NCBI GenBank assembly: GCA_947384285.1
Contig: CANDGI010000034.1
Span: forward strand, 1-35,406
Length of the DNA stretch: 35,406 nucleotides
Origin: an uncultured Lachnospiraceae bacterium
GTDB taxonomy: Bacteria > Bacillota > Clostridia > Lachnospirales > Lachnospiraceae
Direction of reading: 5' to 3'
The position numbers and the translations under genes are program-made. Of this stretch, positions 2,504-6,906 are shown in pieces (position 1 is the stretch's first letter; each line of letters starts with the position of its first letter). The notes under the pieces were generated by a model. It had not been told where the DNA came from, did no database searches, and worked only from the letters and a program-made list of their open reading frames with translations.

Positions 2504-3391
2504 ATGCATACGCAGTTTTTTGGTAATTTTTTGCTTAATAAGGGAGTTATCACTCCCGAGCAGCTCATTGAGGCTTTAAAGATACAGTCCTCTACCCACA
2601 AAAAATTCGGTACACTGGCAATTCATTCTGGATATATGTCAGCAAGTGAAGTCGCAGATGTCTATATTACACAAACACATTATGACAAGCGTTTTGGAGA
2701 ACTTGCCGTAGAGCTTGGCTACCTCACTCCCGAACAGGTGGACAAACTGCTGACCATTCAGCTTCCTAATTACATGTTACTGGGACAGATTCTGGTGGAT
2801 AAAAAAATAGTGACCCACATTGAACTGGAAAATCTCATTACAGAATACAAATCTGAATATGAGATTTACGAATTGGACATGATGGAAGAACAAAAAAATA
2901 TGGTAGACAAACTGCTGGCCAGCCTGTATCTTCCAGAGGATCTGCCTGATGCCCAGAATATTACTTGTTACCTTACGCTCCTTTTCAACAATCTGGTACG
3001 TTTTATTGGAGAAGATTTTACGCCTTTGAATATTATGACTCTGCCGGAAGTTCCTACGAATTATTGTGTATCCCAGCAAGTAGATGGACAGTTTGCTTTT
3101 CTGTCAGCGCTTGATATGGATTCTGAGACTGCTATCGCTTTCGCAAGCAGGTATGTGGACGATGAATTCGAAGAGTTTGACGAATATGTCAGCGCTTCTA
3201 TGGAAGACTTTTTAAACTTACATAACGGGCTGTATTCTGTAAACATGTCCAATGACTATACGTTAGAGCTGCATCTGCAGCCGCCAGAGTGCCATGAAAA
3301 CACTGTTTTGGCAACGGAAGCGCCTTCTTATCTGCTTCCTGTCATTTATTCATTTGGAACCATCAATTTTATATTCTCTATTACTTCTTAA
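2504..3391 (+). CDS. MshEN-like repeat protein with C-terminal CheX-like domain
   Basis: Not a named gene. Residues 5-115 hold four copies of a 24-residue motif (hydrophobic-GxxL..xxG.(L/I)(T/S)xxxLxxxLxxQ) with the key Gly at 7, 36, 65 and 94, an exact 29-residue period. This resembles the MshEN/GspE-N motif known to bind c-di-GMP in Vibrio MshE, although there the two motifs are separated by a longer spacer. Residues about 130-295 look like CheC/CheX/FliY-type phosphatases: an AxxxAS strand, then D235-x2-N238-x3-G242 in place of the usual ExxNxxxG. It follows the response regulator by 5 nt with its Shine-Dalgarno inside that gene's 3' end. A plausible reading is an output or phosphatase partner that also senses a nucleotide. 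The repeats are seen directly; the ligand is not. Confidence 0.7.
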   Translation: MHTQFFGNFLLNKGVITPEQLIEALKIQSSTHKKFGTLAIHSGYMSASEVADVYITQTHYDKRFGELAVELGYLTPEQVDKLLTIQLPNYMLLGQILVDKKIVTHIELENLITEYKSEYEIYELDMMEEQKNMVDKLLASLYLPEDLPDAQNITCYLTLLFNNLVRFIGEDFTPLNIMTLPEVPTNYCVSQQVDGQFAFLSALDMDSETAIAFASRYVDDEFEEFDEYVSASMEDFLNLHNGLYSVNMSNDYTLELHLQPPECHENTVLATEAPSYLLPVIYSFGTINFIFSITS

Positions 3392-3392
3392 A

Positions 3393-3426
3393 AAAACAGG
3401 CTCCCCATAGCGTGGAGCCTGTTTTT
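3393..3426 (+). terminator. Terminator hairpin 1 of 3
   Basis: AACAGGCTCC pairs perfectly with GGAGCCTGTT across a 9-10 nt loop and is followed by a T run. It begins immediately at the CheX-like stop codon. Confidence 0.85.
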
Positions 3427-3450
3427 AATAGTCTGCCTCATATCATCAAC

Positions 3451-3484
3451 GAAACAAACTCCCCATAGCGTGGAGCCTGTTTTT
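3451..3484 (+). terminator. Terminator hairpin 2 of 3 (degenerate copy)
   Basis: The right arm, loop and T-rich tail are a direct copy of hairpin 1, but the left arm reads AACAAACTCC, leaving two mismatches. The copy includes trailing sequence, giving a roughly 55-60 bp duplicated unit. Confidence 0.65.
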
Positions 3485-3496
3485 AATAGTTTGTCT

Positions 3497-3544
3497 TATA
3501 TCAAAAACAAGCTCCCTATAAGCGGGAAGCTTGTTTTTGATATA
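3497..3544. terminator. Terminator hairpin 3 of 3, bidirectional
   Basis: A 17-bp perfect stem (TATATCAAAAACAAGCT and its complement) with CCC/GGG further in. It has A/T runs on both sides, so it can serve both the plus-strand pair and the converging thrC. Confidence 0.8.
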
Positions 3545-6049: not shown

Positions 6050-6105
6050 TATTTTGTATTTTTTTACCGAAAAAATACATAGAAATATGATTTATGGAGG
6101 TTCTC

Positions 6106-6906
6106 ATGCTGCCAGGCGTCTACATTGCTTACAAAAAAAATGGAACTGCATATTACCGTGCCAGCATCACTTACCGAAGCAAGCACATATCCCTTGGCAG
6201 CTTTGACACGGAGGAGAACGCGCATCTTGCTTACCAGGAAGCCGCCCGGCTGCTGGGAGATGCTTCCATCTCTTTTGAAGACGCCTTTTTGCTCCCTACT
6301 ATTTTAAGTTTTAGCAAAGTGATTTCTTTGTTGAATTTTCGGGATAATCTTATTTATTTTAAAAATCCCATCTATTTAAGGAATAATTATTTTATTTACT
6401 ATATTTCCAAATCGGACGAATTAAAATTTGACATTGACGATTTATTTTATTATTCCAGCCATAAAATTATGCGCCGGCAGGGACATCTTTTTGTCAGCGA
6501 TTATGGAATGCAGATTAATATTCTTTCCCGTTACGGCATAAAAAATTATGGGGTTGCAGGACGGGACTACTATTTTGCCAACGAAGACCCCACAGATTTC
6601 CGCTACTCCAACATAATTGTCGTCAATCAATACTACGGTGTGACAAAAATTTCTTCTTCCCGGGGCGTGGCCTATAAAGTACAGATTCATATCAATGGAA
6701 ATTATACGGTAGGAACCTACCAAAATGAAGAAAAAGCAGCAATTGCTTATAACAAGGCCGTAGATTTGGCAAAAAAGCATGGGGTTTCCAAGAACTTCCA
6801 GGCGAATTACCTGGAACATTATTCGCCCCGGGAATATGCCGAAATCTACAGCCAAATAAAAATTTCAGAAAAATATATCAGTTACCTTAAGCATCTTTCT
6901 GGTTAA
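6106..6906 (+). CDS. AP2-domain protein with degenerate HNH core
   Basis: 266 residues from ATG 6106, chosen because GGAGG at 6096-6100 precedes it by 5 nt; an in-frame ATG at 6094 overlaps that site. The N-terminal AP2-like module (about 4-51) has GVY...YRASI...[19 protein letters not shown] second AP2-like module (about 176-226) has YYGVTK...YKVQI...[17 protein letters not shown]. Between them, about 85-170 follow the layout of phage HNH homing endonucleases, but the usual DHxNGxxxDNRxxN block reads [14 protein letters not shown], so the catalytic Asp-His is gone. In phage enzymes AP2 modules bind DNA. The inferred role is a DNA-binding protein derived from a homing endonuclease, perhaps regulatory. 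The middle third is AT-rich relative to neighbours. It overlaps leuD tail to tail by 20 nt. Confidence 0.65.

Follow-up and report, generated by a model that had tools for sequence, protein, structure and literature searches.

The effects of cyclic di-GMP (c-di-GMP) on motility are known mostly at the level of gene expression or of the flagellar motor. Within the phosphatase superfamily that includes CheX, CheC and FliY, FliY sits in the flagellar switch, and CheX is represented by structures of the Thermotoga maritima and Borrelia burgdorferi proteins (PDB 1xko, 1squ and 3hzh). Control at the level of CheY dephosphorylation has been proposed in Borrelia where, according to a review, PlzA, a receptor for c-di-GMP, may regulate chemotaxis through modulation of CheX or CheY3 (PMC4013479). 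Furthermore, a Vibrio cholerae study lists the CheX-family gene VC0377 as mutated in one motility suppressor (PMC8789113). Finally, a single sentence in the paper of Wang et al. (2016) on the MshEN domain mentions that MshEN occurs in association with CheX and with REC (PMC5013675). Our literature search, with subscription journals and supplements outside its scope, found no study of an MshEN-CheX protein.

Here we describe such a protein and its partner receiver, encoded in a stretch of 35,406 nucleotides from an uncultured Lachnospiraceae bacterium, which we refer to throughout as the window. An original prediction, made from the letters of the window, had proposed that the two proteins could form a small circuit in which a cyclic nucleotide modulates dephosphorylation of the receiver.

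Results

The window contains a compact two-gene unit

A gene for a lone CheY-like receiver of 123 residues (2127-2498, + strand; hereafter CheY2) is followed after 5 nt by a gene for a 295-residue protein (2504-3391, + strand; hereafter the MshEN-CheX protein). CheY2 matches Pfam Response_reg at E 1.7e-25, and the lone receiver predicted 5 nt upstream was thereby recovered; its assignment also draws on paralogue and residue comparisons, and that of the MshEN-CheX protein on NCBIfam and Pfam matches and a family profile.

Upstream of the pair, a promoter-like site of sigma-A type (TTGAAA, 17 nt, TAGAAT; 2066-2094, + strand) lies inside a block that is conserved over 20 aligned upstream regions (the window and 19 other loci); beyond this block, upstream DNA lacks such conservation in the same set. 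A search of the region with a sigma-A-like pattern returned 6 sites where 5.5 were expected, and a match to the pattern therefore does not by itself argue for a promoter. We rejected a flagellar sigma-D promoter for the pair, as a pattern search of the 20 upstream regions gave no match and the conserved site is sigma-A-like. On the other side, the stretch that separates the pair from the convergent gene for threonine synthase (3392-3544) contains inverted repeats that form three terminator-like stem-loops. The terminator search placed these three sites on the minus strand, and found 4 sites in the searched region against 1.1 expected. Two of the three stem-loops fall in a direct repeat of 57 nt, whose copies are 88% alike and have a spacing of 58 nt.

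The immediate neighbours of the pair are a cytidine deaminase gene upstream and the threonine synthase gene downstream. No che, flagellar or motility family was recognised among the 23 other window genes scanned (two of which had no family), and no kinase gene was recognised adjoining the pair. A scan of 20 neighbouring genes in ten distant loci likewise found no che or flagellar family; most of these neighbours are unrelated housekeeping genes, and we rejected the idea that gene neighbours name the function of the pair. Elsewhere in the window, a 270-aa open reading frame (6094-6906) weakly matches the AP2 domain over residues 26-52 (E 1e-4, which is below cut-off), with a second similar stretch near its end recognised by eye, and a frame like it in place and size occurs in 17 of 38 loci compared.

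The receiver and the MshEN-CheX protein are inherited together

Matches to the MshEN-CheX protein at E <= 0.001 were found in 50 of 99 related genomes, its own included. Ten of these 50 genomes were left out for having weak matches only (E 5.5e-7 to 5.6e-4), nine of them in frames of 561-591 residues; the one left-out match that was read (L066) looks like a pilus-type ATPase. The MshEN-CheX protein is present in 40 related genomes, and in 38 of these a receiver is adjacent or fused to it, in agreement with the conservation of the pair that the original prediction had called for. The receiver lies upstream in 29 genomes, downstream in five and is fused at the C-terminus in four (G045, G036, G051 and G086), while the two copies without an adjoining receiver (G008 and G082) lie at contig ends. 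The natural fusions mark the receiver as the expected partner of the MshEN-CheX protein. In a phylum-wide sample the protein was found in 17 of 398 genomes. Of the 18 loci, counting that of the window, 17 have an adjoining receiver; only one of the two G319 copies (L084) departs from this, with no receiver found within ~1.5 kb on either side.

Pairwise distances among MshEN-CheX proteins correlate with those among their receivers at r 0.82 (15 genomes; none of 2000 permutations as high), compared with r 0.36 for the unlinked flagellar CheY. Because linked inheritance would give the same correlation, the value of 0.82 shows inheritance as a unit and not contact.

The acidic pair, phospho-acceptor Asp, Ser/Thr and Lys of receivers are kept in all 18 aligned sequences. 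The genome has 47 other receiver matches, of which the CheY of the flagellar operon is by far the closest paralogue of CheY2 (100 bits, 43% identity), the next scoring 49.7 bits. Each of 16 genomes tested encodes one CheY that is 75-100% identical to this flagellar CheY, and in 14 of the 16 the paired receiver is 42-48% identical to it; the paired receivers of G082 and G094 gave no match to it within E 1e-20. Some genomes encode further CheY-like receivers (G059, G086 and G094, at 56-59%). In a tree, the paired receivers and the flagellar CheYs are separated at a moderate support of 0.86, and the paired group also includes one outgroup receiver on a long branch. In the window and in the neighbours scanned at the ten distant loci, the paired receiver is not encoded with che or flagellar genes. 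Judged by these comparisons, it is a second CheY, separate from that of the flagellar operon.

The N-terminal half carries one canonical pair of MshEN-type repeats

The N-terminal half of the protein scores 85.7 bits (E 1.4e-24) against NCBIfam NF053729, an MshE-related model of a c-di-GMP motif with a curated cut-off of 38 bits, and no other protein of this genome (83% complete) exceeds the MshEN cut-off. Its glycines at residues 7, 36, 65 and 94 follow an exact 29-residue period, and the four MshEN-type repeats originally read from them are confirmed. The prediction had named assignment to an unrelated repeat fold as one outcome that would overturn it; the MshEN motif is instead the strongest match by far. 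Pfam hits of the protein up to E 10 do not include any MshEN model, and the two Pfam matches on the repeats, DUF4388 (residues 35-88, E 1.9e-4) and FumaraseC_C (residues 41-85, E 3.4e-4), are below their cut-offs in the window protein and were taken as cross-matches.

A relaxed MshEN motif, as published in PMC5013675, occurs in the protein at residues 34 and 63 only. In 100,000 shuffles of the same protein, two copies never arose and at least one copy arose in 29. The earlier reading of the repeats as MshEN motifs accordingly holds in full for two of them. Repeat 2 (residues 34-57; 2603-2674, + strand) and repeat 3 (residues 63-86; 2690-2761, + strand) carry the c-di-GMP signature, as K-h-G...G...Q and R-h-G...G...Q respectively, and would supply the first and second halves of a c-di-GMP site. 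They have the MshEN arrangement of two 24-residue motifs and a 5-residue spacer, and the family profile aligns them gap-free with MshE (5htl) at E 1.7e-7. Repeats 1 and 4 are degenerate. Repeat 1 (residues 5-28; 2516-2587, + strand) is MshEN-like and begins with Phe, not Arg/Lys; repeat 4 (residues 92-115; 2777-2848, + strand) has Leu for Arg, Lys for the second Gly and Tyr for Gln.

The contact positions of the domain (Arg/Lys, Gly, Gly and Gln) are all present in both central motifs, as K34, G36, G43 and Q57, and as R63, G65, G72 and Q86. In an alignment of 56 homologues, 25 of them from the window's genus and with counts taken over the rows that have a residue at the position, repeat 2 keeps K/R34 in 49/52, G36 in 49/52 and Q57 in 51/53 rows, and repeat 3 keeps R/K63 in 45/53, G65 in 50/53 and Q86 in 50/54. 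The first position of repeat 1 is Arg/Lys in none of 52 rows, and repeat 4 has Tyr or Phe in place of Gln in 52 of 55. The four repeats therefore amount to one canonical MshEN unit, made of repeats 2 and 3, flanked by two degenerate repeats. Structure models of the protein were poor in quality.

The hydrophobic pocket departs from that of MshE, in which Leu29 packs on a guanine. The equivalent residue 54 is Leu in none of 53 rows, and in the window protein the guanine-packing Leu cluster is replaced by F35, V50, Y54, F64, V79 and L83, all hydrophobic with one Leu of six. According to PMC5013675, a change of any single conserved hydrophobic residue lowers the affinity of MshE more than tenfold, and calorimetry detected practically no binding once two or three Leu were changed together; the G11L and G40I variants bound poorly, if at all, while ligand still stabilised several variants with Ala in the Leu cluster. 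Set against these mutant data, c-di-GMP binding by repeats 2 and 3 is plausible, not assured, because the contact residues are kept but the pocket leucines are altered.

The same observations bear on a reading that we consider rather unlikely, in which the repeats no longer bind c-di-GMP and serve as a docking or dimer-forming module that places a CheX-type phosphatase for CheY2 at the array or the motor. The invariable absence of Leu at the MshE Leu29 position would fit such a loss, as would the abolition of MshE binding by multiple Leu changes (PMC5013675). So would four genomes of the f62 lineage (G127, G369, G415 and G458; L091-L094), which keep the CheX domain and the receiver and have lost the c-di-GMP residues or most of the repeats, despite 15-18 GGDEF matches each. 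Conservation is nevertheless selective, with Arg/Lys, Gly and Gln kept in repeats 2 and 3 and varying positions in repeats 1 and 4. Moreover, the kept glycines are at the positions whose change left MshE with little or no binding, and some MshE variants with Ala for pocket leucines kept their stabilisation by the ligand (both from PMC5013675). We also considered whether the f62 losses follow a loss of c-di-GMP enzymes, an idea contradicted by the GGDEF counts just given.

The C-terminal half resembles CheX and retains an acidic-x-x-Asn motif

Pfam CheX matches residues 189-278 (3068-3337, + strand) of the window protein at E 2.6e-4 and 21.4 bits, below the curated cut-off (27 bits), and matches 14 of 16 family members at E <= 0.01. 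A profile of the C-terminal half finds the CheX structures 3hm4, 3hzh, 1squ and 1xko at E 2e-4 to 7e-4. Together, the family-wide matches and the structural hits bear out the CheX-like domain of the original prediction. The stretch D235-F-L-N238 (3206-3217, + strand) aligns in the profile with the catalytic E-x-x-N of these structures.

Asn at 238, the catalytic position, is invariant in 55 of 55 homologues, and residue 235 is acidic in all 55, as Asp in 28 and Glu in 27. The replacement of the catalytic Glu by Asp that had been noticed at the outset is thus correct for the window protein, in which Asp stands three residues before the Asn, and does not extend to most relatives outside the genus: Asp235 marks the window's genus (25 rows) together with G042, G044 and G343 of the family, and the other relatives have Glu. 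The substitution may weaken catalysis in the window's genus.

Asp in about half of the homologues (28 of 55) could also be taken to mean that the CheX half is not, or hardly, catalytic. In such a case the protein, as a phosphorylation- and ligand-dependent adaptor or phosphate sink, would compete for CheA phosphate with the flagellar CheY, and the occurrence of receiver and CheX in cis in the four fusions would suit that role. We hold this to be unlikely, as a pure scaffold would need neither the acidic residue nor the Asn that are kept throughout the 55 homologues, and all four fused forms carry Glu at the catalytic acidic position.

The pair occurs in flagellated genomes

That no motility genes surround the pair, as first remarked, is true of the window but not of the genome, which is flagellated. 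A large cluster of flagellar and chemotaxis genes on contig C9 includes CheY, CheB, CheA, CheW, CheC, CheD, FliY and a YcgR-type protein (CheC, FliY and YcgR assigned by Pfam, CheA by its dimer domain and the rest by eye), and Flagellin_N is matched six times in the genome, CheA twice and GGDEF four times.

Outside the genus, with each genus of the family represented by one genome and shared ancestry left uncorrected, CheA was matched in 10 of 10 genomes with the pair and 6 of 22 without it (Fisher p 2.5e-4), and Flagellin_N in 10 of 10 and 7 of 22 respectively (Fisher p 3.5e-4). Over all 99 genomes, Flagellin_N is found in 40 of 40 pair genomes and CheA in 39 of 40, the CheA exception being G008, which is 74% complete. 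The pair occurs in only 3 of 32 flagellated genomes elsewhere in the order, so flagella do not require the pair, and two genomes of the window's own genus (G012 and G017) have CheA and Flagellin_N matches with the MshEN-CheX protein absent. In the phylum sample, CheA is matched in 17 of 17 genomes with the protein and 328 of 398 overall, a weak enrichment. All 40 pair genomes have GGDEF matches, but so do 93 of the full set of 99.

Some loci have a GGDEF gene nearby. A GGDEF-EAL gene adjoins the pair in G030 and lies one gene away in G032 (L057, 3381-5831; L059, 1321-4398), and in G319 (C2:37687-38157) a GGDEF match in an 818-aa frame lies ~1.3 kb from one MshEN-CheX copy. These neighbours are suggestive, but G030, G032 and G319 all belong to one family.

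The position of the pair away from flagellar genes and its conserved promoter-like site of housekeeping type could point to an output other than flagellar rotation, served for example through another histidine kinase or through a second chemosensory cluster. Such a cluster exists on contig C24 (L068), with a histidine kinase, CheR, CheB, a lone receiver, CheA, CheW and an MCP, and is a candidate partner of the pair. We nonetheless find a non-flagellar output very doubtful, given that Flagellin_N is missing from none of the ten pair-bearing family genomes outside the genus and that eight of these ten have a single CheA match.

Discussion

We can now propose how the pair may work. The explanation that best accommodates the comparisons, and one in which we place about even confidence, is that the locus encodes a second CheY and, to go with it, a CheX-type phosphatase that c-di-GMP tunes, the two feeding into flagellar chemotaxis. 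The two genes would constitute a second chemotaxis branch, with CheY2 kept separate from the CheY of the flagellar operon and most likely phosphorylated by CheA. The CheX half would dephosphorylate CheY2 by inserting the helix that bears D235 and N238 into the active site of the receiver. Repeats 2 and 3 would form one 53-residue c-di-GMP site, capped by the degenerate repeats 1 and 4, and binding or release of the messenger would change the action of the CheX half on CheY2. The level of c-di-GMP would in this way set how long CheY2 stays phosphorylated, and CheY2-P would either act on the flagellar switch or drain phosphate from CheA. The comparisons themselves show the sequence-based domain assignments, conserved ligand-type and catalytic-type residues, regular pairing and fusion with the receiver, kinship with CheY and, within the family, co-occurrence with flagella and CheA; in this scheme we infer the identity of the ligand as c-di-GMP, the phosphatase activity, CheA as the kinase, the direction of control and the output. 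Several observations count against the scheme: the altered pocket, the f62 genomes, Asp for Glu in the window's genus, the sub-cut-off CheX match of the window protein, G012 and G017, the weak CheA enrichment in the phylum sample, the rarity of the pair among flagellated genomes elsewhere in the order, the poor structure models, and a neighbourhood in which no kinase gene was recognised. The circuit of c-di-GMP and receiver first suggested for this locus thus remains the leading reading; that suggestion was incomplete with respect to the flagellar context, the single canonical repeat pair and the distribution of Asp and Glu at the catalytic position.

The presence of a spare CheY with an MshEN-CheX protein in swimming gut bacteria suggests a candidate direct route from a lifestyle signal to the tuning of chemotaxis. 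In its most general form, which we put forward tentatively and with rather less than even confidence, the proposal is that flagellated gut Clostridia possess a c-di-GMP-gated CheY phosphatase with a dedicated second CheY, fused in some species into one sensor-phosphatase-receiver protein, that would run a direct post-translational line from c-di-GMP to the lifetime of the chemotaxis messenger. As one protein joins both domains and regularly occurs with one receiver, the question of control at CheY dephosphorylation would become testable with two purified proteins, and the f62 lineage offers a natural comparison for binding. Such a protein would also indicate a way in which chemotaxis may be tied to the choice between swimming and settling in flagellated gut commensals.

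Several described systems share parts of this arrangement. The MshEN domains of MshE, PilB/PilF and NfrB-type proteins (PDB 5htl and 8pdk) are likewise built from two 24-residue motifs and a 5-residue joint, with the same contact residues (Arg/Lys, two Gly and Gln). In contrast to these, the protein described here has four repeats of which the central two are canonical, never has Leu at the position of MshE Leu29 (53 rows), and is joined to CheX, not to an ATPase or glycosyltransferase. CheX (PDB 1xko, 1squ and 3hzh) shares the C-terminal half, the E/D-x-x-N catalytic helix and a CheY as partner, whereas here the phosphatase-type domain has its own N-terminal ligand-type domain, carries Asp for Glu in the window's genus and goes with a second receiver that is encoded away from the che operon. 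CheC and FliY belong to the same phosphatase superfamily as the CheX half and are both encoded in the flagellar cluster of this genome; they differ in that location, and neither was found by the MshEN motif search of the genome. In Borrelia, PlzA is a separate protein whose link to chemotaxis is only proposed, while the CheX protein described here contains the receptor-type domain itself. The sentence of Wang et al. (2016) names MshEN-CheX and MshEN-REC, with neither characterisation nor a dedicated receiver in the passages concerned. With the domain combination itself named in 2016, what appears to be new here, from comparison of sequences, is an arrangement in which a CheX-type phosphatase has an MshEN-type sensor built in and a receiver dedicated to it.
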